A stretch of DNA of 17,678 nt from Alphaproteobacteria bacterium (lineage in GTDB: Bacteria; Pseudomonadota; Alphaproteobacteria; Rhodobacterales; Rhodobacteraceae): NCBI GenBank assembly GCA_003694465.1, contig RFKM01000020.1:1-17678 (forward strand), read 5' to 3'. Of this stretch, positions 1,273 through 14,622 are shown one piece after another; within the stretch, counting starts at the first letter, position 1, and each line of letters begins with the position of its first letter. Position numbers and translations under genes: made by a program. The notes beneath the pieces were generated by a model. That model had not been told where the DNA came from. It did not search any database and saw nothing but the letters and a program-made list of their open reading frames with translations.

Positions 1273-1325
1273 AACGGTCAATGGCCGGAAAACGCGCCGA
1301 TTTTACGGCAAAAGGGAATACATGC

Positions 1326-1393
1326 TGACCTAAAATTGCGAGGGAAAATCCTTGCGAGTCGGGCGAGTTGGTAATTTATCGCATTTTAGGTCA
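1326..1393. promoter_or_regulatory. Widely spaced inverted repeat upstream of gltD (candidate operator pair)
   Basis: The left arm TGACCTAAAATTGCGA (1326-1341) is matched in reverse complement by TCGCATTTTAGGTCA (1379-1393). The pairing is perfect except for one unpaired T in the left arm. The 37 bases between the arms look non-coding, and the area is markedly more AT-rich than the flanking genes. The same element recurs upstream of ilvE (12347-12362). Two like half-sites about 50 bp apart would suit cooperative binding or looping by a dimeric regulator. The right arm overlaps the candidate -10 region, which would suit repression. No protein can be assigned from the sequence alone. Confidence 0.55.
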
Positions 1394-1397
1394 TATA
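1368..1397 (+). promoter_or_regulatory. Candidate sigma-70-type promoter of gltD
   Basis: TTGGTA (1368-1373) and CATATA (1392-1397) are separated by 18 bases; TCATAT (1391-1396) gives 17. Transcription would start near 1404, leaving a leader of about 58 bases before the gltD ATG at 1462. The right arm of the inverted repeat overlaps the -10 hexamer. The match is imperfect, and alphaproteobacterial promoters are degenerate, so this is only the best candidate in the gap. Confidence 0.3.
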
Positions 1398-1449
1398 GGC
1401 TGACTTTTCTTTTCTGCCGGCCATGCTAAAAGCTGCTCCGAAACCAATC

Positions 1450-1454
1450 GGAGG
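1450..1454 (+). promoter_or_regulatory. Shine-Dalgarno site that fixes the gltD start
   Basis: GGAGG lies 7 bases before the ATG at 1462. An in-frame ATG at 1423 has no comparable site, and its 13 extra residues do not resemble the usual N-terminus. This favours 1462. Confidence 0.85.
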
Positions 1455-1461
1455 CGCACTC

Positions 1462-2895
1462 ATGGCAAGGCAGCCAATGTTGAAATTCGTGGATATCGGG
1501 CGCGACATGCCGACGAAGCGCCCCGCCGATGAACGGCGCCGCGACTTCAATGAAATCTACGCCGAGTTTTCCGACGAGAAGGCCGCCGAACAGGCCTCGC
1601 GCTGCTCGCAATGCGGCGTTCCCTATTGCCAGTCGCATTGCCCGCTTTCCAACAACATCCCCGACTGGCTGCGGATGACGGCGATGGGGCGCCTGCGCGA
1701 AGCCTACGAGATCAGCCAGGCGACCAACACCTTCCCCGAGATCTGCGGCCGGATCTGCCCGCAAGACCGCCTTTGCGAGGGCAACTGCGTCATCGAGCAG
1801 GCCGGCCACGGGACGGTGACGATCGGCGCCGTCGAGAAATACATCACCGATACGGCGTGGGAGCAGGGCTGGGTCGAAGACATCGCGCCGATCGCCGAGC
1901 GCGAGGAAAGCGTCGGAATCATCGGGGCCGGCCCGGCGGGGCTGGCCGCGGCCGATGCGCTGCGCCGCGCCGGGGTTCAGGTCACCCTCTATGACCGGCA
2001 CGACCGCGCCGGCGGCCTGCTGACCTATGGCATTCCGGGCTTCAAACTCGACAAGAGCGTCGTGATGCGGCGGATCGGCCAGCTCGAACGCTCGGGCGTG
2101 AAGTTCGTTCTCAACTGCAATGTCGGCGAAGACATCACCTTCCAGGAATTGCGCGGCCGGCATGACGCGGTGCTGATCGCCACCGGCGTTTACAAGAGCC
2201 GCGATCTGGGCGGTCCGGGGGCGGGCGCGCGCGGAATCGTCCGGGCCATCGACTACCTCACCGCTTCGAACCGGGTGAATTTCGGCGATACGGTCGAGGA
2301 ATACGAAAACGGCACGCTGAACGCCAAGGGCAAGAAGGTCGTGGTGATCGGCGGCGGCGACACCGCGATGGACTGCGTGCGCACCGCGATCCGGCAGGGC
2401 GCGACCTCGGTGAAGTGCCTTTACCGGCGCGACCGCAAGAACATGCCCGGCTCGCAGCGCGAAGTTGCCAATGCCGAGGAGGAGGGCGTCGAATTCGTCT
2501 GGCTGGCGGCGCCGAAGGGCTTTGCCGGTGACCCGGTGACGGGCGTTCTCGTCCAGCGCATGCGCCTTGGTCGGCCGGATTCGTCGGGGCGGCAGTCGCC
2601 CGAACCCATCGAGGGGTCGGATTACGTCGAAGAGGCCGACCTCGTGATCAAGGCGCTGGGTTTCGAGCCGGAAAACCTGCCCGAAGCCTGGCAGGAGCCC
2701 GATCTGCCGGTCACCCGCTGGGGCACGGTGAATGCCGAGTTCGACACCGGCGCGACGATGCTGGCCGATGTCTTCGCCGCCGGCGACATCGTGCGCGGCG
2801 CCTCGCTGGTGGTCTGGGCGATCAAGGACGGGCGCGACGCGGCGGGCGCGATCCTGCGCAAGTTCGATTCCGCGCGCCGGGTGGCGGCGGAATGA
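1462..2895 (+). CDS. gltD: Glutamate synthase (NADPH) small subunit
   Basis: This 477-residue subunit oxidises NADPH at FAD and passes electrons to the large subunit GltB, which makes glutamate from glutamine and 2-oxoglutarate. The N-terminus begins MARQPMLKFVDIGRDMPTKR, typical of the family. Two cysteine groups bind the [4Fe-4S] clusters: C48/C51/C56/C60 (CSQCGVPYCQSHC) and C95/C99/C105/C109 (CGRICPQDRLCEGNC). The FAD Rossmann motif GAGPAG begins at G155, and the NADPH-binding GGGDTAMD at G297. The C-terminal AAGDIVRGASLVVWAIKDGR is the conserved FAD-contacting end. The length fits the family (about 470-480). The start at 1462 is chosen by its GGAGG. The stop overlaps the next gene's start (ATGA at 2892-2895), indicating translational coupling. 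Here gltD precedes gltB and is separated from it by a hydrolase gene, unlike the contiguous gltBD of enterobacteria. Confidence 0.97.
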   Translation: MARQPMLKFVDIGRDMPTKRPADERRRDFNEIYAEFSDEKAAEQASRCSQCGVPYCQSHCPLSNNIPDWLRMTAMGRLREAYEISQATNTFPEICGRICPQDRLCEGNCVIEQAGHGTVTIGAVEKYITDTAWEQGWVEDIAPIAEREESVGIIGAGPAGLAAADALRRAGVQVTLYDRHDRAGGLLTYGIPGFKLDKSVVMRRIGQLERSGVKFVLNCNVGEDITFQELRGRHDAVLIATGVYKSRDLGGPGAGARGIVRAIDYLTASNRVNFGDTVEEYENGTLNAKGKKVVVIGGGDTAMDCVRTAIRQGATSVKCLYRRDRKNMPGSQREVANAEEEGVEFVWLAAPKGFAGDPVTGVLVQRMRLGRPDSSGRQSPEPIEGSDYVEEADLVIKALGFEPENLPEAWQEPDLPVTRWGTVNAEFDTGATMLADVFAAGDIVRGASLVVWAIKDGRDAAGAILRKFDSARRVAAE

Positions 2896-3680
2896 ACGCA
2901 TCCCCCCAGCCACGCCCGGCTGAGTCCGAGGCGCGACTGCCGATCGAGCTGCATCTCGAGCGCGATGACCTCGTTGTCTGGCGGCATCGCGGCACCTCGG
3001 GGCGGCTTGCCCTTTCCTTCTCCGGCATCGGTCCGAAAGACGGGACGATGCCGCCGATCGAATTTGCCCGGATCGCAACGGCGGGGGGGCTGCACAATGC
3101 GCTTTTCATCATCGACCCGAAGCGCACATGGCTCAACGGCGACGGGCTGATCGAGCGCATTGCCGACATCGTGCGCGCCTTTGCCGAGAACGTGGGTGCC
3201 GAGGAGACCGTGGCGCTCGGCCATTCGATGGGCGGGTTCGCGGCGATCGTCATGTCGGGCTTCATTCCGATGAAATCGGCCGTCGCCTTTTCGCCGCAGG
3301 TCTCGGTGCACCCCGACATTGCCGGCGACGATCCGCGCTGGATGTATTTCCGTCGCCACATCACGCGCCACCGGCTCGGAAGCGCCGCCGATCACATGGT
3401 GCCGGAGACGGCCTATCACGTCTTTCACGGCGCCAATGTCGCCGAACGCCCGCAGCGCGACCGGTTTCCGGTGGCGGCGAACCTCTCGCATCTCGTCCTG
3501 CCGCGCATCACCCACCAAGTCCCGCAGAAGCTCAAGGAAGTCCGGCTTCTGGGCAAGGTGGTGCGCGCGGCGCTCAACAACCGTGCCCGCATCGTGCGCG
3601 AGACGCTGAAACCGCTCGGCGCACATCGTCGCACGCTGGACACCTACCCGATATTGCCGCCCTCCGCCGAATGCGCATGA
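2892..3680 (+). CDS. Uncharacterised alpha/beta-hydrolase-fold protein between gltD and gltB
   Basis: This 262-residue protein overlaps gltD by ATGA and ends 46 bases before gltB, so it is almost certainly made from the same transcript. The segment VALGHSMGGFAAIVMS contains a G-x-S-x-G nucleophile elbow, with S112 as the likely nucleophile. H208, in RITHQVP near the end of the fold, is a plausible catalytic histidine, and the acid may be an Asp in the ERPQRDRF stretch before it; both assignments are inferred from position. The N-terminal half reads as alternating beta strands (LALSFSGIG, NALFIID), also consistent with this fold. There is no signal peptide or membrane segment, so it is probably cytosolic. 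The roughly 45-residue C-terminal tail is basic and looks helical. The substrate is unknown: it could be an esterase, thioesterase or amidase, or non-enzymatic. Codon usage looks like that of its neighbours, so recent acquisition is not suggested. Confidence 0.8.
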   Translation: MNASPQPRPAESEARLPIELHLERDDLVVWRHRGTSGRLALSFSGIGPKDGTMPPIEFARIATAGGLHNALFIIDPKRTWLNGDGLIERIADIVRAFAENVGAEETVALGHSMGGFAAIVMSGFIPMKSAVAFSPQVSVHPDIAGDDPRWMYFRRHITRHRLGSAADHMVPETAYHVFHGANVAERPQRDRFPVAANLSHLVLPRITHQVPQKLKEVRLLGKVVRAALNNRARIVRETLKPLGAHRRTLDTYPILPPSAECA

Positions 3681-3726
3681 CGCTAAGGCAGGGCTTGGCC
3701 GAACACCTCTCTTCAGGAGACGCCCC

Positions 3727-6700
3727 ATGACCAAATACGACGAAAACTGGAAGGCCGAGGAAGAAGCCCGGCGCGCCTGGCTGGCCGAGAACGGCCTTTA
3801 CCGGTGCGAGGACGAGCACGCCTCCTGCGGGGTCGGTCTCGTCGTCTCGATCGACGGCAAGCCGTCGCGGAAGGTGGTCGAAAACGGCATCGAGGCGCTC
3901 AAGGCCGTCTGGCACCGCGGTGCCGTCGATGCCGATGGCAAGACGGGCGACGGCGCCGGCATTCATGTCCAGATCCCGCGGGCCTTCTTTTTCGACCAGA
4001 TCCGCCGCACCGGCCACGAGCCGCGCCCCGGCGAGCAGATCGCCGTCGGGCAGGTGTTTCTGCCGCGCACCGATTTCAGCGCGCAGGAAACCTGCCGGAC
4101 GATTGTCGAATCGGAAATCCTGAAGCTCGGCTACTACATCTATGGTTGGCGCGGTGTGCCGGTCGACATTTCCTGCCTTGGCGAAAAGGCCAACGCCACG
4201 CGCCCGGAGATCGAGCAGATCCTCATTTCCAACTCCAAGGGTGTCGACGACGAGACCTTCGAGCGCGAGCTCTACGTGATCCGCCGCCGGATCGAGAAGG
4301 CCGCCGCCGCCGCCGGGGTGCGCGATCTCTACATCGCCTCGCTCTCCTGCCGGTCGATCATCTACAAGGGGATGATGCTGGCCGAGCAGGTGGCCGAGTT
4401 CTACCCCGATCTCAAGGACGAGCGCTTCGAGAGCGCTTTCGCCATCTACCACCAGCGCTATTCGACCAACACCTTCCCGCAATGGTGGCTGGCCCAGCCC
4501 TTCCGGATGCTGGCCCACAATGGCGAGATCAACACCCTCAAGGGCAATCTCAACTGGATGAAGAGCCACGAGATCCGGCTGGCGAGCGCCACCTTTGGCG
4601 AGCTTGCCGAAGACATCAAGCCGATCGTGCCGCAAGGCTCGTCCGACTCGGCGGCGCTCGATGCCGTGTTCGAGATGCTGGTCCGGGCCGGCCGCTCGGC
4701 GCCGATGGCCAAGATCATGCTGGTGCCGGAAGCCTGGTCGAAACAGGCCACCGCGCTGCCGCAGGCCTGGATCGACATGTATGCCTATGCCAACGCGATC
4801 ATGGAGCCGTGGGACGGCCCCGCCGCCCTGGCCATGACCGACGGGCGCTGGGTCTGCGCCGGGCTCGACCGCAACGGCCTGCGCCCGATGCGCTACGTCG
4901 TGACCGGCGACGGGCTGGTGATCGCCGGCTCCGAGGCGGGAATGGTTCCCATCGACGAGTCGACCGTCGTCGAGAAGGGCGCCCTCGGGCCGGGCCAGCT
5001 CTTGGCCGTGGACATGGCCGAGGGCCGGCTGTTCCACGATGCCGAGATCAAGGACAAGCTTGCCGCCTCGCGCCCCTTCGGCGATGCCGTCACCCATGTG
5101 AACGACATCGACGAAGAAATCAGCCAGACCGCCGAGAAGCCCATCTTTACCGGCGCCGAGCTGCGCAAACGGCAGGTCGCGGCGGGCTACACGCTCGAAG
5201 ACCTCGAGCAGATCCTTTCCCCGATGGTCGAAGACGCCAAGGAACCGCTCGCCTCGATGGGCGATGACACGCCGGTCGCGGTGCTGTCGAACCAGTATCG
5301 GCCGCTCAGCCATTTCTTCCGGCAGAACTTCAGCCAGGTCACCAACCCGCCGATCGACTCGCTGCGGGAATACCGGGTGATGAGCCTCAAGACGCGGTTC
5401 GGCAACCTCAAGAACGTGCTCGACGAAACCGGCAGCCAGACCGAGATTCTCGTTCTCGAAAGCCCCTTCGTCGGCAATTCGCAGTTCGAGGAGCTGGTCA
5501 AGCGCTTCAAGGCGCCGATGACCGAGATCGACTGCACCTTCCCCGCCGATGGCGGGCCGGACAGCCTGCGCGAGGCCCTCGAGCGCATCCGCAGCGAGGC
5601 GGAAGACGCCGTGCGCTCCGGCGCCGGTCACCTCGTGCTGACCGACATGCACCAGAACGAGAACCGCATCGCCATGCCGATGATTCTCGCCACCAGCGCG
5701 GTGCATTCGTGGCTGACGCGGCAGGGCCTGCGCACCTTCACCTCGCTCAACGTGCGCTCGGCCGAGGCGATCGACCCGCATTATTTCGCGGTTCTGATCG
5801 GCTGCGGGGCGACGGTGGTCAACGCCTATCTCGCCGAAGACAGCATTGCCGACCGGATCGAGCGCGGCCTGCTCGACGGCCCGCTTACCGAGGCGGTGCG
5901 CCGCTACCGCGAAGCGATCGACCAGGGCCTTTTGAAGATCATGTCGAAAATGGGCATCTCGGTGCTGTCGTCCTATCGCGGCGGGCTCAACTTCGAGGCG
6001 GTCGGGCTCTCGCGGGCGATGGTGAACGAATATTTCCCCGGCATGACCAGCCGCATTTCCGGGATCGGGGTTTCGGGCATCCAGAAAAAGCTCGAGGAAG
6101 TCCACGCGAAAGGCTGGCGCACGCAGGGCGCCACGGTGCTGCCCATCGGCGGGTTCTACAAGGCCCGCAAGGGCGGCGAAGCCCACGCCTGGACGGCGCA
6201 GGCCATGCACCTCATGCAGAGCGCCTGCGACCGCGCCTCCTATGACCTGTGGAAGAAATACTCCGCGGCGATCCGCGCCAACCCGCCGATCCACCTGCGC
6301 GATATCCTCGACATCAAGCCGCTCGGCGCGCCGGTGCCGATCGAGGAAGTCGAGAGCATCACCGCGATCCGCAAGCGCTTCGTGACCCCGGGCATGTCTC
6401 TCGGCGCCCTCAGCCCCGAGGCGCACAAGACGCTCAACGTCGCCATGAACCGGATCGGGGCGAAATCCGACAGCGGCGAGGGCGGCGAGGATCCGGCCCA
6501 TTTCGTTCCCGAGCCGAACGGCGACAACCCGTCGGCAAAGATCAAGCAGGTCGCCTCCGGGCGCTTCGGGGTGACGGTCGAATATCTCAACCAGTGCGAA
6601 GAGCTCGAGATCAAGGTCGCCCAGGGGGCCAAGCCCGGCGAGGGCGGTCAGCTGCCCGGCATCAAGGTGACCGAGCTCATCGCCCGCCTGCGTCATTCCA

Positions 6701-8268
6701 CCAAGGGGGTGACGCTGATTTCGCCGCCGCCCCACCACGACATCTACTCGATCGAAGACCTCGCGCAGCTGATCTATGACCTCAAGCAGGTCAACCCCCG
6801 CGCCAAGGTGACGGTCAAGCTCGTCGCCGCCTCCGGTGTCGGCACCATCGCCGCGGGCGTGGCCAAGGCCAAGGCCGACGTGATCCTGATTTCCGGTGGC
6901 AATGGCGGCACCGGCGCCTCGCCGGCGACCTCGATCAAGTTCGCGGGCCTGCCGTGGGAAATGGGCCTGACCGAGGCGCAGCAGGTGCTTGTGATGAACA
7001 ACCTGCGCAACCGCGTGACGCTGCGCACCGACGGCGGCCTGCGCACCGGGCGCGACATCGTCATGGCGGCGATGATGGGGGCCGAGGAATTCGGCATCGG
7101 CACCGCGGCCCTGATCGCCATGGGCTGCATCATGGTGCGCCAGTGCCAGTCGAACACCTGTCCGGTCGGCGTCTGCACCCAGCGCGAAGACTTGCGAGAA
7201 AAATTCACCGGCACCGCCGACAAGGTGGTGAACCTCATCACCTTCTATGCCCAGGAAGTGCGCGAGATTCTCGCCAGCATCGGCGCGCGCTCGCTCGATG
7301 AAGTGATCGGGCGCGCCGACCTGTTGCACCAGGTGAGCCGCGGCGCCGCGCACCTCGACGATCTCGACCTCAATCCGCTGCTGATCACGGTCGAATCGCC
7401 CGAGGGCGGGCTCTACGATCTCAACCGGCCGCGCAACGAGGTGCCCGATACCCTCGACGCCGAGATCGTGCGCGATGCCGCCCGTTTCCTGAACGATGGC
7501 GAGAAGATGCAGCTGCAATACGCGGTGCGCAACACCCACCGCAGCGTCGGCTCCCGCATCTCCAGCCACATCGTGCGCCGCTTCGGGATGCGCAACAGCC
7601 TCCAGCCCGACCACCTGACCGTGAAGCTCACCGGCTCGGCGGGCCAGTCGCTGGGGGCGTTCGCCGCGCCGGGGCTCAAGATCGAGGTGTCGGGCGATGC
7701 GAACGACTACGTCGGCAAGGGCCTGTCGGGCGGGATCATCGTGGTTCGCCCGCCGATGAATTCGCCGCTTGTTGCCGCCGAGAACACCATCATCGGCAAC
7801 ACCGTGCTCTACGGCGCGACCGATGGCTATCTCTTCGCCGCCGGGCGCGCGGGCGAGCGGTTCGCCGTCCGCAACTCCGGCGCGAAGGTCGTGGTCGAAG
7901 GCTGCGGCTCGAACGGGTGCGAATACATGACCGGCGGCGTTGCCGTCATTCTCGGCCCGATCGGCGCCAATTTCGGCGCCGGCATGACCGGCGGCATGGC
8001 CTATGTCCATGACCCGGACGGCACCGCCGAACAGGCCCTCAACATGGAAACGCTGGTCACCGCCCGGGTGACGGTCGACCATTGGGAAGCAGAGCTGAAG
8101 GGGCTGATCGAGCGGCACGTCGCCGAAACCGGTTCGGTGAGGGCGCAGCACATCCTGCAGCATTGGGACGAGGAGCGGCAGAACTTCCTTCAGATCTGCC
8201 CGAAGGAAATGCTGCCGCACCTTCCGGTGCCGCTGTCGCTCGAGGCAAACGCGGTTCCGGCCGAGTAG
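3727..8268 (+). CDS. gltB: Glutamate synthase (NADPH) large subunit
   Basis: This 1513-residue enzyme converts glutamine plus 2-oxoglutarate to two glutamates using electrons from GltD; it is the GOGAT half of the GS-GOGAT ammonium assimilation cycle. Domains in order: a short propeptide (1-33); a class II glutamine amidotransferase domain starting at Cys34 (HASCGVGLVV), which becomes the N-terminal nucleophile after cleavage; a central domain (about 480-780); an FMN-binding synthase domain (about 830-1200) with GEGGEDPAHF, KPGEGGQLPG, SPPPHHDIYSIEDL and ISGGNGGTGASP; the [3Fe-4S] cysteines C1134, C1140 and C1145 (MGCIMVRQCQSNTCPVGVC); and a C-terminal glycine-rich beta-helix (about 1270-1500). 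The length matches bacterial large subunits (about 1480-1520). AGGAG at 3715-3719, 7 bases before the ATG, supports the start. No frameshift is visible. Confidence 0.98.
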   Translation: MTKYDENWKAEEEARRAWLAENGLYRCEDEHASCGVGLVVSIDGKPSRKVVENGIEALKAVWHRGAVDADGKTGDGAGIHVQIPRAFFFDQIRRTGHEPRPGEQIAVGQVFLPRTDFSAQETCRTIVESEILKLGYYIYGWRGVPVDISCLGEKANATRPEIEQILISNSKGVDDETFERELYVIRRRIEKAAAAAGVRDLYIASLSCRSIIYKGMMLAEQVAEFYPDLKDERFESAFAIYHQRYSTNTFPQWWLAQPFRMLAHNGEINTLKGNLNWMKSHEIRLASATFGELAEDIKPIVPQGSSDSAALDAVFEMLVRAGRSAPMAKIMLVPEAWSKQATALPQAWIDMYAYANAIMEPWDGPAALAMTDGRWVCAGLDRNGLRPMRYVVTGDGLVIAGSEAGMVPIDESTVVEKGALGPGQLLAVDMAEGRLFHDAEIKDKLAASRPFGDAVTHVNDIDEEISQTAEKPIFTGAELRKRQVAAGYTLEDLEQILSPMVEDAKEPLASMGDDTPVAVLSNQYRPLSHFFRQNFSQVTNPPIDSLREYRVMSLKTRFGNLKNVLDETGSQTEILVLESPFVGNSQFEELVKRFKAPMTEIDCTFPADGGPDSLREALERIRSEAEDAVRSGAGHLVLTDMHQNENRIAMPMILATSAVHSWLTRQGLRTFTSLNVRSAEAIDPHYFAVLIGCGATVVNAYLAEDSIADRIERGLLDGPLTEAVRRYREAIDQGLLKIMSKMGISVLSSYRGGLNFEAVGLSRAMVNEYFPGMTSRISGIGVSGIQKKLEEVHAKGWRTQGATVLPIGGFYKARKGGEAHAWTAQAMHLMQSACDRASYDLWKKYSAAIRANPPIHLRDILDIKPLGAPVPIEEVESITAIRKRFVTPGMSLGALSPEAHKTLNVAMNRIGAKSDSGEGGEDPAHFVPEPNGDNPSAKIKQVASGRFGVTVEYLNQCEELEIKVAQGAKPGEGGQLPGIKVTELIARLRHSTKGVTLISPPPHHDIYSIEDLAQLIYDLKQVNPRAKVTVKLVAASGVGTIAAGVAKAKADVILISGGNGGTGASPATSIKFAGLPWEMGLTEAQQVLVMNNLRNRVTLRTDGGLRTGRDIVMAAMMGAEEFGIGTAALIAMGCIMVRQCQSNTCPVGVCTQREDLREKFTGTADKVVNLITFYAQEVREILASIGARSLDEVIGRADLLHQVSRGAAHLDDLDLNPLLITVESPEGGLYDLNRPRNEVPDTLDAEIVRDAARFLNDGEKMQLQYAVRNTHRSVGSRISSHIVRRFGMRNSLQPDHLTVKLTGSAGQSLGAFAAPGLKIEVSGDANDYVGKGLSGGIIVVRPPMNSPLVAAENTIIGNTVLYGATDGYLFAAGRAGERFAVRNSGAKVVVEGCGSNGCEYMTGGVAVILGPIGANFGAGMTGGMAYVHDPDGTAEQALNMETLVTARVTVDHWEAELKGLIERHVAETGSVRAQHILQHWDEERQNFLQICPKEMLPHLPVPLSLEANAVPAE

Positions 8269-8317
8269 GACGGGCGCGGCGGTCGGGGAAAGTGGCCTTG
8301 ACCGCCCGCGCGCGGGC

Positions 8318-9100
8318 ATGCTCAGAAACACCATGGCCCGGCGCAAGCAAACCCCACCGCCCTCGCTCACCCTCGGCATCCTGCGGGGGCTGGGCCGGCT
8401 TTTCCTGCGCCACGCCGCCCGGGTGTGGGGCTGGATCTGGCATTGGGCCCGGCTCGTGCTTGCGGTGTTCTTTGCCGCCGTGGTGACGGCAACGCTGCTC
8501 TACATCCCGATCAACCCGCCGACGACCCTGTTGATCGCCGCCGAAAAGGCGCGCCTCGGGTCGGTCGAATGGCAATGGGTCGATCTCGAACAGATCGCGC
8601 CGGTCATGGCCAGGGCGGCTGTCGCGGCGGAAGACGCAAATTTCTGCAATCACTGGGGGTTCGACGTCAATGCGATCCGCCAGGTCATTGCGCGCGGCGA
8701 ATCGCGCGGGGCCTCGACGATCACCCAGCAGACGGTGAAGAACGTCTTTCTCTGGCCGGCGCGCAGCTGGCCGCGCAAGGCGCTCGAGGCGGTCATCACG
8801 CCGATCGTCGAGCTGTTCTGGACAAAGCGGCGGATCCTCGAAGTTTACCTGAACGTGGCCGAGTTCGATGCCGGAGTCTTTGGCGTCGAGGCGGCGGCGC
8901 GGCACTATTTCGGCGTTTCCGCCGCAGACCTGACGGCCGAGCAGGCGGCGCGTCTGGCGGCAGTCCTGCCCGATCCGCGGAAGCGCTCGGCTTCGCAGCC
9001 ATCGCAATTCGTCCTGCGTCGGGCGGAAGCGATCATGGACGGCGCCGAGACCATCCGGGCCGACGGGCGTGCCGCCTGTTTCCAGGATCAGAGGCGGTGA
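8318..9100 (+). CDS. mtgA: Monofunctional biosynthetic peptidoglycan glycosyltransferase
   Basis: This 260-residue protein polymerises lipid II into glycan strands at the periplasmic face of the inner membrane, without a transpeptidase domain. A basic N-terminus is followed by one membrane anchor (about residues 47-67, LVLAVFFAAVVTATLLYI) and a GT51 domain. The catalytic glutamate is E105 in AAEDANFCNHWGF, the first GT51 motif. GASTITQQTVKNVFLW (second motif), KRRILEVYLNVAEF (with its conserved E and N) and the GVEAAARHYFG segment follow in family order. The length fits MtgA (about 230-260) and excludes a bifunctional penicillin-binding protein. The start is uncertain: ATG 8318 and in-frame ATG 8333 both lack a clear Shine-Dalgarno site. 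It lies 49 bases after gltB, so read-through from the glt operon is possible. Confidence 0.93.
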   Translation: MLRNTMARRKQTPPPSLTLGILRGLGRLFLRHAARVWGWIWHWARLVLAVFFAAVVTATLLYIPINPPTTLLIAAEKARLGSVEWQWVDLEQIAPVMARAAVAAEDANFCNHWGFDVNAIRQVIARGESRGASTITQQTVKNVFLWPARSWPRKALEAVITPIVELFWTKRRILEVYLNVAEFDAGVFGVEAAARHYFGVSAADLTAEQAARLAAVLPDPRKRSASQPSQFVLRRAEAIMDGAETIRADGRAACFQDQRR

Positions 9101-9191
9101 ACTTGGGCCGGCCACTTCCCGCCACATTCCCGCAAAAGGCGAAACGGGATTGAAAGCGCGCGCGAGCCGGGCCAAAACCCCGGGAGTTTGC

Positions 9192-9196
9192 GAGGA
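9192..9196 (+). promoter_or_regulatory. Shine-Dalgarno site that fixes the GST start
   Basis: GAGGA lies 9 bases before the ATG at 9206. It favours that start over an in-frame TTG at 9188, which would add six residues that the family does not have. Confidence 0.65.
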
Positions 9197-9205
9197 CACC
9201 GAGAC

Positions 9206-9871
9206 ATGAACCGCCTGTTTCATTTTCCCTTGTCGCCATTTTCCCGAAAGGTGCGCCTTACCCTGGCCGAGAAGCGGTTGGAGGTGGAACTCGTCGAGGT
9301 GCGCTACTGGGAAAGGCCCGCGGAATTTCTGCGTCAGAACCCGGCGGGCAAGGTGCCGGTGTTGCGCTATGGCAATCGGGTGATGAGCGAGAGCACGGCG
9401 ATCTGCGAATACATCGAAGAGCGCCACCCGACCCCGGCTCTGATGCCCGCCACCCCTGAGGGGCGCTACGAGGTGCGCCGGCTCGTGGGCTGGTTCGACG
9501 ACAAGTTTCATGCCGAGGTCACGTCAAAACTGCTCTATGAGCGCGTTCACAAGAAGATCGCCGGCACCGGTTACCCCGACTCGGCAAATATCAAGGCCGG
9601 GGCGAAGGCGATCAAGTATCATCTCGACTACATGGGCTGGCTGCTCGACAAGCGCCGCTGGCTGGCCGGCGATACCATGACACTCGCCGATTTCGCCGCC
9701 GCGGCGCACCTTTCCTGCCTCGACTACATCTCCGACGTGGACTGGGACCGGAACGAAAACGTGCGCGAGTGGTATGCCAAGATCAAGTCGCGGCCGGCCT
9801 TCCGCTCGATCCTTGCCGACCATGTGCCGGGTTTCATCCCGGCGGCCCATTACGCGGATCTCGACTTTTGA
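9206..9871 (+). CDS. Glutathione S-transferase family protein
   Basis: This 221-residue protein has the two-domain GST layout. The N-terminal thioredoxin-like domain (about 1-80) opens with [18 protein letters not shown]10 or S13 is in the position of the catalytic Ser/Cys. It carries NPAGKVPVL, with the cis-proline that contacts glutathione, and [12 protein letters not shown], the E-S pair that binds the gamma-glutamyl group. The C-terminal helical domain includes [19 protein letters not shown], the N-capping/hydrophobic-staple motif. It is cytosolic. Substrate and class are not determined by sequence; detoxification, stress or a protein-partner role are all possible. Its TGA overlaps a possible TTG start of queG (9868-9870), so the two genes are close-coupled. 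From memory, this GST/queG neighbourhood recurs in alphaproteobacteria. Confidence 0.9.
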
Positions 9872-9891
9872 GCGCCTCGCGCGCCCCGGAC

Positions 9892-10938
9892 ATGAAAGAC
9901 CCGGCGCGCCTTGCCGCGCGCCTCAAGGCCCGGGCGCGCGAAGAGGGGTTTGCCGCGGTCGGGATCACCCGTCCGGACGCGCGCCCCGACATTGCCGGCC
10001 GGCTCGAGGCCTTCGTGGCCCGGGGGTGGCAGGGCGACATGGCCTGGATGGCCGAACGCATGGCCTGGCGCGGCAATCCCGCGGCGCTCTGGCCCGAGGC
10101 AAGGTCGATCGTGATGCTGGCCGAGCCCTACACGCCGGAATGTGATCCGACCGAGGTTCTCGGGCAGCCGGAAAAGGGGGCGATAAGCGTTTATGCCCGC
10201 AATCGCGACTATCACGACATCGTCAAGAAGCGCCTGAAACGTCTTGGGCGCTGGCTGATCGAAACGGCCGGCCCCGAGACCGAGATCAAGGTGTTCGTCG
10301 ACACGGCGCCGGTCATGGAAAAGCCTCTGGCCGAGGCGGCGGGGCTGGGCTGGCAGGGCAAGCACACCAACCTGGTTTCGCGAGAGCTGGGGAACTGGTT
10401 CTTTCTGGGCGCGATCTTCACGACGCTGGACCTGCCGGCCGACGCACCGGGCGCCGATCATTGCGGAAGCTGTTCGGCCTGCATCGCGGCCTGTCCGACC
10501 GAAGCGTTCCCCGCCCCCAGGCAACTGGATGCCCGCCGCTGCATCTCTTACCTCACGATCGAGCACAAGGGGCCGGTTCCCCTCGATCTGCGCGAGAAGC
10601 TCGGCAACCGGATCTATGGTTGCGATGATTGTCTCGCCGCCTGCCCCTGGAACAAGTTTGCCGTCACGGCCTCGGAAGCGCGCTACCACGCCCGCGAAGA
10701 CCTGAATGCGCCGGCCCTCGAAGAGCTTGCCGGGCTGGATGATGCCGCGTTCCGAAAGATGTTTTCAGGGTCCCCCATCAAGCGTCTCGGGCGCGCGCGC
10801 TTCCTGCGCAATGTCTGCTACGCGATGGGAAATTCCGGCGAGAGGCGATTTCTCGATGCGTTGCGGCCATTGACGGGCGAGGACGACCCCGTTCTTGCCG
10901 AGGCGGCACGCTGGGCCGTCGCGCGGCTTGGCGGCTGA
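9892..10938 (+). CDS. queG: Epoxyqueuosine reductase
   Basis: This protein, 348 residues from the ATG at 9892, is a cobalamin- and iron-sulfur-dependent enzyme reducing epoxyqueuosine to queuosine in the wobble position of tRNAs with a GUN anticodon; it is the last step of the pathway and acts in the cytosol. The N-terminal domain contains [21 protein letters not shown]137 corresponds to the family's proposed proton-donating Asp. The ferredoxin-like part has C191/C194/C197/C201 ([12 protein letters not shown]) and C244/C247/C251 ([10 protein letters not shown]) for two [4Fe-4S] clusters, with C218 or a nearby Cys in RRCISYL probably completing the second. The C-terminus has HEAT-like helices, as in QueG. 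A TTG at 9868 that overlaps the GST stop would add eight residues. Neither start has a strong Shine-Dalgarno site. The gene converges on the next one with 10 bases between stops. Confidence 0.95.
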
Positions 10939-10948
10939 CGGACCCCGT

Positions 10949-11362
10949 TCAATGCATGCGAAGCGCCTGCGAGGCGGGCTCGACACCCGCCACGGCCCGG
11001 CTGACCGGAAAGGGCCCGAGTTCGGAACCGCCGATTCGATAGGTCACCTGCGACACTCCTTTGCCGGGGTGGAAGCGCACCCAGACGTCGGTGATACCCT
11101 TTGCCGCGAATGCCCTTGTGATCGAGTCGGCCAGCTTGAATTTCGTCAGGCCGCCGTTCTTTCCGTCGACCCAGGTGACATCGGCGATGATGACAAGCGA
11201 TTGATCGCCGATGCCAAACTCCTGAAGTGCCTGCTTGGTTATGGCGAGGGGCCGAAGCAACGGATTGTTCGTGAAGTGATACCCTGCGATCATCGCGACC
11301 GTCGGCGCGACGATGACGAAAATCAAGAGGAGCAGGTAACGGATCTTTTGGGAATAAGACAT
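10949..11362 (-). CDS. Small membrane-anchored protein of unknown function
   Basis: I do not recognise this 137-residue protein. Residues 8-27 (IRYLLLLIFVIVAPTVAMIA) form one strong hydrophobic segment after a short polar N-terminus with one basic patch, so it is an N-in membrane anchor or uncleaved signal. No lipobox is seen. The remaining 110 residues would be periplasmic and look like a small mixed alpha/beta domain: SLVIIADVTWVDG, a helix LADSITRAFAAKG, a strand TDVWVRFHPGKGVSQVTYRIGG, and a conserved-looking LGPFP near the end. It has no cysteines and no obvious catalytic motif. The start codon lies just downstream of ilvE (61 bases), and the 3' arm of a perfect hairpin covers the weak Shine-Dalgarno region. 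Coding is supported by the codon-position bias and domain-like protein; the function is unknown. Confidence 0.72.
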   Translation of the reverse strand: MSYSQKIRYLLLLIFVIVAPTVAMIAGYHFTNNPLLRPLAITKQALQEFGIGDQSLVIIADVTWVDGKNGGLTKFKLADSITRAFAAKGITDVWVRFHPGKGVSQVTYRIGGSELGPFPVSRAVAGVEPASQALRMH

Positions 11363-11366
11363 GGCG

Positions 11367-11397
11367 GCCCCAAGGTTTTACCAGTCAACCTTGGGGC
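11367..11397 (-). terminator. Perfect 11-bp hairpin between ilvE and the small membrane protein gene
   Basis: GCCCCAAGGTT (11367-11377) and AACCTTGGGGC (11387-11397) are exact reverse complements around a 9-base loop. On the minus strand the hairpin lies 27 bases after the ilvE stop and four bases before the next ATG. No U-run follows the stem on that strand (the next bases are CGCCATG), so it is not a canonical intrinsic terminator. It could be a partial terminator/attenuator or mRNA-end stabiliser after ilvE, or a structure that hides the ribosome site of the downstream gene. Confidence 0.5.
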
Positions 11398-11423
11398 AAA
11401 ACGATTTCGATTTGGTAAATCGC

Positions 11424-12290
11424 CTAGGAGCGCACCAGGGCTTCGTAGGCGTTTGAAATTTCGCGGGTGAGCTCACCAACCTCGAACGTATAGTCACCGA
11501 TCTGCCCGACGGGGGTGACCTCGGCCGCCGAACCCGTGAGCCAGCATTGCTGGAAGCCGGCCATCTCTTCGGGCATGATGTGGCGCTCGTGCACGGGGAT
11601 GCCCCTGTCCTTCAGAAGCCCGATCACGGTCTGGCGGGTGAGGCCGTTGAGAATCGCGTCGGGAAGCGGGGTGTGAACCTCGCCGTCCTTGACGAAGAAG
11701 ACGTTGGCGCCGGTCGCCTCGGCGACATATCCGCGGTAGTCGAGAAACAGGGCGTCGGAGCATCCCTTGGCCTCGGCAGCGTGTTTCGACATGGTGCAGA
11801 TCATGTAAAGACCCGCGGCCTTGGCGGCGGTGGGGATGGTTTCGGGGCTGGGGCGCTTCCATTTCGAGATGTCGAGCTTGGCCCCCTTGAACTTTGCGTC
11901 GCCGTAGTAACTTCCCCATTCCCAAGCGGCGATGAACAGCCGAATCGGGTTGCGCGACGAACTCACGCCCATGTCTTCGCCGGCGCCGCGAAAGGCGATG
12001 GCGCGCACATAGGCATCGGAAAGCCCGTTGGCCTCGAGCACGGCATATTTCGCCTCTTCGATCTGGTCGACCGTCCAGGGGATGTTCATGTCCATCATCT
12101 CGCCCGAGCGCCGCAGCCGCTCGCTGTGCTTGCGCGAGAGGAAGATCTTGCCGCCATAGGCGCGCTCACCCTCGAAAACCGAGGAGGCATAGTGCAGCGC
12201 ATGGGTCAGAACGTGCACCTTGGCATCGCGCCAATCGACGAGGTCGCCATCCACCCAGATCTTTCCGTCGCGATCGTCATATGCCGTCAT
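11424..12290 (-). CDS. ilvE: Branched-chain amino acid aminotransferase
   Basis: This 288-residue cytosolic PLP enzyme is of fold type IV and interconverts valine, leucine and isoleucine with their 2-oxo acids, using glutamate/2-oxoglutarate. The N-terminus, with KIWVDGDLVDWRDAKVHVL followed by HALHYASSVFEGERAY, closely follows E. coli IlvE. The Schiff-base lysine is K157 in IPTAAKAAGLY. The PLP-contacting glutamate lies in YVAEATGANVFFVKDGE, and the phosphate-binding LNGLTRQTVIGLL follows. This pattern separates it from D-amino acid aminotransferase and aminodeoxychorismate lyase, although substrate range cannot be proved. The start is fixed by AAGGAGG six bases upstream. A longer frame reaching 12416 would run over the promoter and operator region and adds non-family residues. 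It is divergent from the MarR-like gene, with which it shares 170 bases of control region. Confidence 0.95.
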   Translation of the reverse strand: MTAYDDRDGKIWVDGDLVDWRDAKVHVLTHALHYASSVFEGERAYGGKIFLSRKHSERLRRSGEMMDMNIPWTVDQIEEAKYAVLEANGLSDAYVRAIAFRGAGEDMGVSSSRNPIRLFIAAWEWGSYYGDAKFKGAKLDISKWKRPSPETIPTAAKAAGLYMICTMSKHAAEAKGCSDALFLDYRGYVAEATGANVFFVKDGEVHTPLPDAILNGLTRQTVIGLLKDRGIPVHERHIMPEEMAGFQQCWLTGSAAEVTPVGQIGDYTFEVGELTREISNAYEALVRS

Positions 12291-12296
12291 CTTGAG

Positions 12297-12303
12297 CCTC
12301 CTT
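12297..12303 (-). promoter_or_regulatory. Strong Shine-Dalgarno site of ilvE
   Basis: On the minus strand this reads AAGGAGG, six bases before the ATG at 12290. It decides against in-frame upstream starts at 12416 and between. Confidence 0.9.
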
Positions 12304-12333
12304 CGGCGGGCACGGTTGTCACAAATTGCGTCG

Positions 12334-12356
12334 TTTAGGTCCGTTGCGGACATAAA
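12334..12356. promoter_or_regulatory. Near-perfect 23-bp palindrome, candidate MarR-type operator
   Basis: TTTAGGTCCG (12334-12343) and CGGACATAAA (12347-12356) are inverted copies with one mismatch around a central TTG. The element is flanked on both sides by the direct repeat AAATTGCG (12323-12330 and 12355-12362). Size and symmetry fit a winged-helix MarR dimer site, and a MarR-family gene lies next to it, so autoregulation and ilvE control are a natural reading. It would sit within the ilvE leader if the candidate ilvE promoter is right. The half-site also occurs upstream of gltD. Confidence 0.55.
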
Positions 12357-12375
12357 ATTGCGCAAAACTCGAGAT

Positions 12376-12404
12376 TCGCTATCAGTTCGATCTTGGAATG
12401 TCAA
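12376..12404 (-). promoter_or_regulatory. Candidate ilvE promoter
   Basis: On the minus strand a perfect TTGACA (12404-12399) is followed after 17 bases by TAGCGA (12381-12376), a poor -10. Transcription would begin near 12369, giving a leader of about 79 bases that contains the palindrome. The -35 is convincing and the -10 is weak. Confidence 0.35.
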
Positions 12405-12421
12405 CAAGACTGACATAAACT
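12393..12421 (+). promoter_or_regulatory. Candidate promoter of the MarR/response-regulator pair
   Basis: TTGGAA (12393-12398) and TAAACT (12416-12421) are 17 bases apart, placing a start near 12428 and a leader of about 33 bases. The -35 directly abuts the candidate ilvE -35 on the other strand, and the -10 overlaps a further half-site, TGACATAAACTTGCC (12411-12425). Both hexamers match only four of six consensus bases. Confidence 0.3.
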
Positions 12422-12425
12422 TGCC
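12411..12425 (+). promoter_or_regulatory. Isolated half-site similar to the gltD and ilvE elements
   Basis: TGACATAAACTTGCC matches TGACCTAAAATTGCG (1326-1340) at 12 of 15 positions. It lies 36 bases before the MarR-like start codon and overlaps its candidate -10. Alone it would be weak evidence; it gains weight from the palindrome 55 bases upstream. Confidence 0.35.
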
Positions 12426-12460: not shown

Positions 12461-12964
12461 ATGACCGAAAGATCGCCGTCCGGCAGCCCCTCGTTGCTGT
12501 TCCTGACCGATGAACAGCTGCGGCAGGGGATCGAGGCCATGTTCTTCGCCTATCGCGGCTTCACCGCCGACCCCGACCGGATTCTGGCCGAACACGGATA
12601 CGGGCGGGCCCATCACCGGGCGATCCATTTCATCCACCGCTCGCCCGGGACCACCGTGAACAACCTGCTGTCGATTCTCGGAGTGACGAAACAGTCGCTC
12701 AACCGGGTTCTGCGCTCGCTGATCGACGAGGGGCTTGTCGAGGTGCGGGTCGGCACCCGTGACCGGCGCGAACGCCACCTTTATCTGACCGAAAAGGGCG
12801 CGGCGCTCGAACGCGAACTTTCCGACGTTCAGCGCGAACGGATGCGGGCGGCCTACCGGCAGGCCGGGCCCGAGGCCGTGCAGGGGTTCCGGGCGGTTCT
12901 GGAAGCGATGATGGATCCGCAGATCCGGCGTCACTTCCGAGACCTGCAGGACAACGGGTCATGA
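12461..12964 (+). CDS. petP: MarR-family transcriptional regulator, PetP-like
   Basis: This 167-residue winged-helix protein has the MarR plan: an N-terminal dimerisation helix (about 15-40), then GYGRAHHRAIHFIHRSPGTTVNNLLSILGVTKQSLNRVLRSLIDEGL as the helix-turn-helix (about 47-95), a wing VRVGTRDRRERHLYLTEKG with the conserved D-x-R-x-R pattern, and C-terminal dimer helices. It acts as a DNA-binding dimer; a ligand is not evident. GGAGA precedes the ATG. Its stop overlaps the next start (ATGA at 12961-12964), so the regulator and response regulator are coupled. From memory, the petP-petR pair of Rhodobacter capsulatus, lying upstream of the cytochrome bc1 genes and needed for growth, has this composition. 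The name rests on that pairing and family resemblance. No bc1 genes are visible here. Confidence 0.75.
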   Translation: MTERSPSGSPSLLFLTDEQLRQGIEAMFFAYRGFTADPDRILAEHGYGRAHHRAIHFIHRSPGTTVNNLLSILGVTKQSLNRVLRSLIDEGLVEVRVGTRDRRERHLYLTEKGAALERELSDVQRERMRAAYRQAGPEAVQGFRAVLEAMMDPQIRRHFRDLQDNGS

Positions 12965-13617
12965 GCGGGCTGCCCGGGGCGCATCTTCTGGTGATCGGTG
13001 CCGACGCCCGGCTGCGCGACCCGCTTTGCGCGTTCCTGCGGGGGCGGGGGTTTCTGGTGAGCGCGGCGCGAGACGAGGCGCACGCCGGAAACCTGCTGCA
13101 GGGGCTCGAGTTCGATCTCATCCTGTGCGACGGCGATTCAGCCGATGCCAAGGCATGCCTGTCGAATATCGCCACGCCGGTGATCCATCTCGGGCACCGC
13201 GGCGCCAAGGTGCCGGACGGGGCAACATTCCTCGAAAAGCCCGCCTCTGCGCAACGCATCGCCGAGACCGTCGGCGCCCTGCTCGGCCTCGGGGCGGAAC
13301 GGCCTGCCCGCACTGGAACCATCGTTCTGGGGCGGATGCGGTTCGACCCGGAAAGCGGCGTTCTGCGCGATGGAAGCCGGCACATTCGCCTCACCGCCAC
13401 GGAAGCGGCACTTCTGAGAACCCTCGCCGCGCGGCCGGGGGAGCCGATGACGCGCGAGCAGCTCGTTGCCTGCCTTGGACGCGGCGCGACGGAGGTGAAG
13501 CCGCGGGCCATCGACGTGCAGATCACCCGCCTGCGCCGCAAGCTCGAAGACGACCCCAGAGCCCCCCGCGTTCTGCAGACCATCCGCCGTGCGGGGTATG
13601 CCCTGATCTGCGGTTGA
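12961..13617 (+). CDS. petR: OmpR-type response regulator with a degenerate receiver, PetR-like
   Basis: This 218-residue protein has a receiver-like domain (about 8-110) and a complete OmpR winged-helix domain (about 118-218). The latter contains IRLTATEAALLRTLAARPG, the recognition region AIDVQITRLRRKLEDDP and the wing LQTIRRAGYALI. In the receiver, D57 (FDLILCD) and K93 (FLEKP) are in place of the phosphoacceptor Asp and conserved Lys. The usual acidic pair after beta-1 is replaced (VIGADARLR instead of a V-D-D type motif; only D15 remains). The switch Thr/Ser after beta-4 is G78. The alpha3-beta4 part is about a dozen residues shorter than usual. Mg2+ binding and phosphorylation are therefore probably impaired. 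No histidine kinase gene is nearby. The symbol rests on pairing with the PetP-like gene; a divergent paralogue is possible. Confidence 0.75.
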   Translation: MSGLPGAHLLVIGADARLRDPLCAFLRGRGFLVSAARDEAHAGNLLQGLEFDLILCDGDSADAKACLSNIATPVIHLGHRGAKVPDGATFLEKPASAQRIAETVGALLGLGAERPARTGTIVLGRMRFDPESGVLRDGSRHIRLTATEAALLRTLAARPGEPMTREQLVACLGRGATEVKPRAIDVQITRLRRKLEDDPRAPRVLQTIRRAGYALICG

Positions 13618-13671: not shown

Positions 13672-14622
13672 ATGACCACCGCGCTCTTTACCCATCCCGA
13701 CTGCCTGAAGCACGTCAACCCGCCCGGCCATCCCGAACAGGTTGCGCGCCTCGAAGCGATCAACGCCCGCCTCGCCGCGCCGGTCTTTGCGCCGCTCGAC
13801 CGGCGCGAGATGCCCCTCGGCGCCGAAAGCGACATTCGCCGCGCGCATCCGCGCGATTATCTCGAGCGCGTGCGGGGGCAGGTTCCCTCCGAAGGCACCG
13901 CCAAGCTCGACCCCGACACCTGGCTTTCGCCCGGCTCGTGGGAGGCGGCCCTGCGCGCCGTGGGCGGGGTGTGCGCGGCGGTTGACGCGGTTCTGGCCGG
14001 CGAGGCCGACAACGCCTTCGTGGCGGCCCGCCCCCCCGGGCACCATGCCGAACGGGCGCGGGCGATGGGGTTCTGCATCCTTTCCAACGTCGCCATCGCC
14101 GCGCTGCACGCGCTCGAAGTGCAGGGGCTGCGCCGCGTGGCGATTCTCGACTTCGACGTGCATCACGGCAACGGCACGCAAAACGTCCTGTGGAATGAAA
14201 GCCGCATCCGCTTTGCCTCGAGCCACCAGATGCCGCTCTATCCCGGCAGCGGCGGGCGGCACGAAAAGGGCGCCTATGGGCAGATACGAAACGTCCCCCT
14301 TCCAGAGGGCAGCGGCGACGAGGCGATGATGGAGGCCTGGCAAGACGAGATCCTGCCCTGGGTGGCAGAGTGGGAGCCGGAGCTGGTCCTGGTTTCGGCC
14401 GGGTTCGATGCCCACCGCGCCGACCCGCTCGCCGGGCTGCACTGGGAAACCGCCGATTTCGCCTGGCTGACGCACCGGATCTGCGACCTCGCCGATGCGT
14501 GCTGCTCCGGCCGGGTGGTCTCGACACTCGAGGGCGGATATGATCTTGAAGCGCTGGCCGAAAGCGTCGGCGAACATGTGAAGGTTCTGATGGAGCGGGG
14601 CGATGACGGACAAGCCGGTTAG
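13672..14622 (+). CDS. Class II histone-deacetylase-like zinc amidohydrolase
   Basis: This 316-residue protein belongs to the arginase/deacetylase superfamily, whose bacterial members (acetoin-utilisation-like proteins, acetylpolyamine amidohydrolases) remove acetyl groups from lysine or amines in the cytosol. The active-site sequence is complete: RPPGHHAE with H124/H125 (charge-relay histidines); DFDVHHGNGTQ with the zinc ligands D162 and H164; SAGFDAHRADPL with the third zinc ligand D246; and LEGGYDLEAL with Y290, the transition-state tyrosine. The length is typical (about 300-310). It starts 54 bases after the response regulator with only a weak upstream GGAAAGG, and overlaps xseB by 20 bases. 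The substrate is unknown: protein lysine, polyamine or other acetyl-amide. Confidence 0.92.
   Translation: MTTALFTHPDCLKHVNPPGHPEQVARLEAINARLAAPVFAPLDRREMPLGAESDIRRAHPRDYLERVRGQVPSEGTAKLDPDTWLSPGSWEAALRAVGGVCAAVDAVLAGEADNAFVAARPPGHHAERARAMGFCILSNVAIAALHALEVQGLRRVAILDFDVHHGNGTQNVLWNESRIRFASSHQMPLYPGSGGRHEKGAYGQIRNVPLPEGSGDEAMMEAWQDEILPWVAEWEPELVLVSAGFDAHRADPLAGLHWETADFAWLTHRICDLADACCSGRVVSTLEGGYDLEALAESVGEHVKVLMERGDDGQAG

Follow-up and report, generated by a model that had tools for sequence, protein, structure and literature searches.

A 14-base element shared by two intergenic regions of a Rhodobacteraceae genome raises the question of which regulator, if any, connects the genes on either side. 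The element was noticed in a stretch of 17,678 nucleotides (contig RFKM01000020.1, assembly GCA_003694465.1; hereafter, the window), where GACCTAAAATTGCG, upstream of the glutamate synthase gene gltD, recurs with one change as GACATAAAATTGCG some 11 kb away, between the branched-chain aminotransferase gene ilvE and a divergent MarR-family gene that we take to be petP. The initial annotation of the window had considered a common amino-nitrogen regulator of gltD and ilvE plausible, naming the adjacent MarR protein among the possible binders. The idea is well supported by our analysis: in comparisons across genera the sites are not missing but conserved upstream of orthologous gltD and ilvE/petP genes, and the MarR protein is, judging from sequence, the best candidate to bind them. 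We regard the elements as real, conserved and very likely functional, and we consider it probable that they are half-sites of operators for PetP, which would repress its own gene and likely control transamination and glutamate synthesis.

Both copies of the element (1327-1340 and 12349-12362) are found where the annotation had placed them, as are their inverted partners (1379-1393 and 12334-12343) and a looser copy (12411-12425). The degenerate 14-mer occurs twice in the window and is absent from all 2000 local shuffles made in 60-base blocks, and with three mismatches allowed it shows a weak excess (4 matches against an expected mean of 1.36; 14 of 200 shuffles reach 4). As a motif in its own right, the 14-mer was nonetheless rejected: across 61 genomes, GACMTAAAWTKGCR with one mismatch is matched 423 times and its reversed control 396 times, so that there is no genome-wide enrichment, and the TTGC at the position of the 14-mer is kept in only 6 of 29 gltD loci of the family, the window's own among them. 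Likewise, the 8-mer GACMTAAA is not enriched in the draft genome of the organism (1.96 Mb, about 74% complete), where it has 14 sites against 28 for its reversed control, 5 of the 14 lying within the gltD and ilvE/petP intergenic regions.

The functional unit is a 21-bp inverted repeat, WWRGTCA-N7-TGACMTW, of which the 14-mers are the right halves plus adjoining bases. GTCA-N7-TGAC with flanking A/T is common to all the conserved blocks except that of the ilvE leader, a palindrome in the predicted ilvE leader whose spacer is two bases shorter than at the other sites. This anatomy bears out the pairing of 12334 with 12349 but not that of 1327 with 1379 upstream of gltD, since the latter two belong to different palindromes (the right half of 1312-1332 and the left half of 1387-1407, respectively). 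The looser copy at 12411 turns out to belong, as its right half, to the site that is best conserved (12397-12417). A matrix built from 57 sites of relatives, with the window sites excluded, assigns the three 21-bp sites the scores given in Table 1 and the next best match in the window only 0.5, and the same matrix finds nothing scoring at least 16 in 40 local shuffles of the window (largest score, 10.7).

Conservation within the Rhodobacteraceae is extensive. Alignment of the ilvE/petP region across genera yields a conserved block before petP, CTTGGAAAGTCAACAAGGCTGACATAAAAT, whose best match retains 21 to 29 of its 29 letters in all 29 loci, and a second block in the ilvE leader, GGTCCGnnnCGGACATAAnnTTGCG, present in 25 of the 29 and starting 55-56 bases from the first. 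Among named petP loci, the petP-promoter block is found in 80 of 80 and the ilvE-leader block in 76 (at least 16 of 20 specified letters), with pattern starts, which are defined differently in the 29-locus and 80-locus counts, offset by 59 bases in 72 loci, 60 in two and 61 in two. Upstream of gltD, the proximal site TAGGTCAGCANNNCTGACTTTTATT is matched in 30 of 30 family loci (19-25 of 25 pattern letters), and a distal site of the TAGGT type, ending in ACCTAAA, lies 74-75 bp from it in 22 of 29. The family petP set leaves out L022/G034, where an insertion parts petP from ilvE. In G034 (L130, L131) petP lies 1.6 kb from ilvE and both operator blocks remain beside ilvE, the site there scoring 30.4 and none being found at petP within the stretch fetched.

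Other alphaproteobacterial families were scored with a matrix of 59 Rhodobacteraceae sites, two of them from the window, taking a score of at least 10 as a site. The 50 non-family petP loci analyzed (from 49 of 112 non-family genomes, plus G058) reach this score in 44 cases and at least 15 in 43, with TATGTCAACATGGCTGACATA as a typical site; at that threshold, no site is found at the petP loci of G043, G048, G058, G075, G096 and G236. At the sequence level, the palindrome accompanies the promoter or start codon of petP itself both in every named locus and in most of the distant ones. Inspection by eye of the other-family loci sampled did not reveal the ilvE-leader palindrome. Before and over the petP start of G052 (L141, C51:9220-9600), a unit of the TCAAC..GGCTG type is found three times, 26 bp apart.

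A comparison of PetP with the PDB returns 33 distinct sequences at E ≤ 0.01, mostly named as MarR family, and PetP classes as a MarR winged-helix protein; its segment TKQSLNRVLR, taken as the recognition helix, is nearly invariant across 89 sequences. The gene behind petP encodes a response regulator, PetR, which retains an OmpR-type output domain and might, by its adjacency, be the binder instead. We find this highly improbable. In seven petP-less genomes a divergent response-regulator gene, identified by sequence reading as petR-like, stands beside ilvE, yet the site is present upstream of ilvE in none of the seven, which argues against PetR and for PetP; moreover, the receiver of PetR looks degenerate in the window while the sites stay intact, and OmpR-type sites are usually direct repeats. 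That the site beside ilvE disappears along with petP is to some extent trivial, because the promoter of petP leaves with the gene.

The comparison of gltD upstream regions is free of this weakness. Among the genomes of the class, 95 have gltD, of which three belong to the family, 14 are petP-less (E ≤ 1e-20) and 78 carry petP. The comparison took in all 14 petP-less genomes, G209 being so counted despite a borderline petP match (1.5e-19), and 46 of the 78 petP-bearing ones, none of them from the nine genomes with a weak petP match; G236 was dropped from the count (58 bases). A site is found in 33 of 45 petP-bearing genomes but in only 3 of 14 petP-less ones (Fisher 0.0011 at threshold 10; range 0.00012-0.057 over thresholds 8-20), while the background windows, which are mostly coding, reach 10 in 2 of 608 cases in petP-bearing regions and in 1 of 163 in petP-less regions. 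Measured against shuffles of the same stretches (p ≤ 0.01), the counts are 35 of 45 and 3 of 14. Five further petP genomes, fetched earlier and scanned over a somewhat longer stretch, score between 13.3 and 22.5 at gltD.

Additional candidate targets emerged from an exact palindrome search of 26 genomes, which returned 61 matches in 22 genomes against 8 for the reversed control, perfect palindromes being counted on both strands in either pattern. The recurring place besides petP and gltD is the interval that separates a LysR gene from a member of the indolepyruvate:ferredoxin oxidoreductase family (ior; nine loci inspected), whereas several other places look like chance, falling within genes or in a single genome. 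Upstream of ior, the site is present in 21 of 22 anchored family loci, that of the window's own genome included; 10 of the 22 were already known through the palindrome search, and the other twelve have the site in 11 cases. These counts leave out 8 of 30 loci that lacked the anchor and the ior hits beyond the 30 loci. In 5 of 6 genomes, a pyridoxal phosphate (PLP) aminotransferase gene is preceded by a site at a distance of some 70-80 bases; two of the six had drawn attention to the gene, and without them the count is 3 of 4. One locus (G028), truncated by a contig end, is left out. TTGGTCAATGTTGTTGACCTA lies upstream of a partial gene for the large subunit of glutamate synthase (gltB) in a distant family. 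The putative targets ior and the PLP aminotransferase fit a theme of amino-group and 2-oxoacid metabolism.

The ior loci also bring in a LysR-type regulator, such as the one divergent from ior, as a possible binder. The palindrome lies between the two genes in the nine loci inspected, LysR boxes have this spacing, and the dyad contains the T-N11-A of such boxes, T-CAN7TG-A being part of GTCA-N7-TGAC. It is unlikely, however, that a LysR protein accounts for the sites as a whole: in 44 of the 50 other-family loci the site lies at the promoter or start codon of petP, and family genomes without an ior hit at E ≤ 1e-80 (G007, G016, G018 and G034) keep their gltD sites.

Several points weigh against PetP as the binder. 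The likeness of GTCA-N7-TGAC to the LysR box is one, even if that box is too generic to name a binder. At gltD, 12 of the 45 petP-bearing genomes have no site at threshold 10, and the Fisher difference is only 0.057 at threshold 18 and 0.044 at threshold 20. Conversely, petP-less G092, G095 and G132 score 18.6, 26.6 and 13.7; the operator of G095 (L195), a genome 90% complete, is near-perfect, its best MarR match has 27% identity, and the case points to either an assembly gap or another binder. No petP was found in three genomes of the family (G019, G028 and G033), the first two of which keep gltD sites (24.7 and 28.0). Assembly gaps are likely for G019 and G028, because ilvE ends at a contig end in G028 and G019 shows no ilvE; counting both as petP-less changes the comparison to 5 of 16 against 33 of 45 (Fisher 0.006). 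In addition, many of the petP-less genomes are small and distant, so that lineage confounds the test and shared ancestry weakens it. At distant petP loci, the match of G122, which scores between 10 and 15, is weak and unconvincing, and 31 of the 44 sites contain a start codon with an open frame inside the repeat (13 show no overlap), so that coding conservation contributes there. Finally, the ilvE-leader palindrome may be a variant PetP site or may belong to another protein.

Some of these observations would suit a third regulator, for instance an Lrp-family protein, binding the petP, ilvE, gltD and ior promoters with petP as merely one target. Escherichia coli Lrp controls gltBD and ilvIH, the co-loss of sites with petP, the gene for which co-occurrence was tested, could follow lineage, and a gltD site persists in G095, G019 and G028, where no petP was found. 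Sharp dyad symmetry at a regulator's own promoter is, on the other hand, typical of MarR operators, and the site departs from the consensus known for E. coli Lrp. We deem this explanation improbable and retain PetP as the probable binder.

The location of the sites suggests how PetP might act. The inverted repeat would accommodate a PetP dimer. Between ilvE and petP, most of the operator would lie in the 17 bases that separate the two hexamers of the predicted petP promoter, and it would cover the predicted -35 of ilvE (Table 1); from this position binding should repress petP and probably ilvE. In relatives, the predicted petP promoter reads as a conserved TTGGAA-N17-TAAAAT. In several ior loci the right half of the site merges into TATAAT-like letters, a likely -10, and contact with it suggests repression; the proximal gltD operator abuts a likely -35, where either repression or activation would be possible. 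The second sites of ilvE and gltD lie at fixed distances, with centers in the window 62 bp (ilvE-petP) and 75 bp (gltD) apart. These spacings approximate 6 and 7 turns of the helix and suggest that binding is cooperative, on a single face of the DNA. The set of targets, in turn, suggests a 2-oxo acid or an amino acid as ligand, and a transamination-linked metabolite of this kind would release PetP from its operators. For the ilvE-leader palindrome, an RNA hairpin was considered and set aside in favor of a DNA site, as changes in the left arm seem, by eye only, to be unmatched on the right.

Table 1. Predicted sites, promoters and genes of the window (scores from the 57-site matrix)
Feature	Position	Strand	Remarks
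gltD distal operator (predicted)	1312..1332	+	AAGGGAATACATGCTGACCTA; right half strong, left half weak; score 16.8; overlaps element 1327-1340
gltD proximal operator (predicted)	1387..1407	+	TAGGTCATATAGGCTGACTTT; score 23.9; overlaps inverted partner 1379-1393
ilvE-leader palindrome	12334..12362	+	TTTAGGTCCG-TTG-CGGACATAAAATTGCG; dyad core 12339-12351; holds element 12349-12362
ilvE/petP operator (predicted)	12397..12417	+	AATGTCAACAAGACTGACATA; score 28.5, highest in the window
ilvE promoter (predicted)	12376..12404	-	-35 TTGACA (12399-12404) in the petP operator, N17, -10 TAGCGA (12376-12381); suggested by sequence and conserved columns
petP promoter (predicted)	12393..12421	+	TTGGAA (12393-12398), N17, TAAACT (12416-12421)
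gltD, glutamate synthase small subunit	1462..2895	+	TIGR01318 above cut-off
Open reading frame between gltD and gltB	2892..3680		alpha/beta-hydrolase match, sub-threshold
gltB, glutamate synthase large subunit	3727..8268	+	NF008730 above cut-off; behind gltD and the frame at 2892-3680
ilvE, branched-chain amino acid aminotransferase	11424..12290	-	NF005726 above cut-off; divergent from petP
petP, MarR-family regulator (proposed binder)	12461..12964	+	PF12802 (5.5e-13) and PF01047 (2.3e-07), both above cut-off
petR, OmpR-type gene	12961..13617	+	PF00486 only (output domain); receiver looks degenerate

The nearest known system is that of Rhodobacter capsulatus SP108, in which a 76%-identical MarR gene, that of PetP, is divergent from ilvE and followed by petR, in the same order as in the window, and which carries the same operator and ilvE-leader element (L403). 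After petR, SP108 has open reading frames (ORFs) whose translations read as a Rieske protein, cytochrome b and cytochrome c1, whereas in the window petR is followed by another ORF (13672-14622) in place of bc1 genes, a difference of neighborhood rather than of protein. The names petP and petR rest on this gene order and, for petR, on PMC9603854, which describes a requirement for PetR in the expression of cytochrome bc1 in R. capsulatus. Other MarR proteins offer partial parallels. LdtR of Liberibacter and Sinorhizobium is also an alphaproteobacterial MarR regulator, paired with ldtP and not, as petP in the window, with ilvE; according to PMC3999280 and PMC5481520, it binds to the promoter of its own gene and, depending on site position, is reported to activate or to repress. 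Its footprinted motif in the same sources, ATATTCCTTGTATTTTAA, was compared by eye with the family consensus and found unlike it, and an LdtR-type operator was discarded. HmgS, a MarR regulator predicted for tyrosine degradation in PMC5343134, resembles PetP in being assigned to amino acid metabolism (catabolism, in its case) by comparative genomics, but differs in targets and taxa. That comparative study of regulons also names NtrC as controlling gltBD in some alphaproteobacteria. Searches of open-licence PMC papers brought up no operator, targets or regulon of PetP, and nothing relevant for the letters of the operator; neither "ilvE" nor "glutamate synth" occurs in the main text of PMC4344238.

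If this reading is correct, the window would exemplify a new regulon under a regulator of known type, a shared control circuit that we infer from the DNA sequence. The name of petP is tied to photosynthesis and respiration, with no target found in print among those open-licence papers, and a specific operator with a small set of targets would give the gene a role in amino-acid and 2-oxoacid metabolism. PetP would also add a regulator of glutamate synthase, besides NtrC and Lrp, in many alphaproteobacterial families. A broader and more doubtful possibility is that PetP might act as master switch for transamination throughout the Alphaproteobacteria, over a regulon of glutamate synthase, branched-chain aminotransferase, 2-oxoacid ferredoxin oxidoreductase and another aminotransferase. 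It would then respond to a 2-oxo acid or amino acid and, through the petPR genes that precede the bc1 genes in Rhodobacter, link respiratory electron flow to amino-nitrogen status. The specificity of the predicted sites is sufficient for binding to be tested directly.

The remainder of the window comprises uppP, ahead of gltD, and a gene for a monofunctional peptidoglycan transglycosylase between gltB and ilvE. ORF 10949-11362, on the minus strand and 137 amino acids long, has no Pfam or NCBIfam match at E ≤ 0.001, and ORF 13672-14622, located after petR where SP108 has its bc1-like ORFs, reads as deacetylase-like. In the receiver of PetR (12961-13617), alignment places IGADAR where R. capsulatus PetR has VDDDER, and the loop that follows the phospho-acceptor region is shorter.

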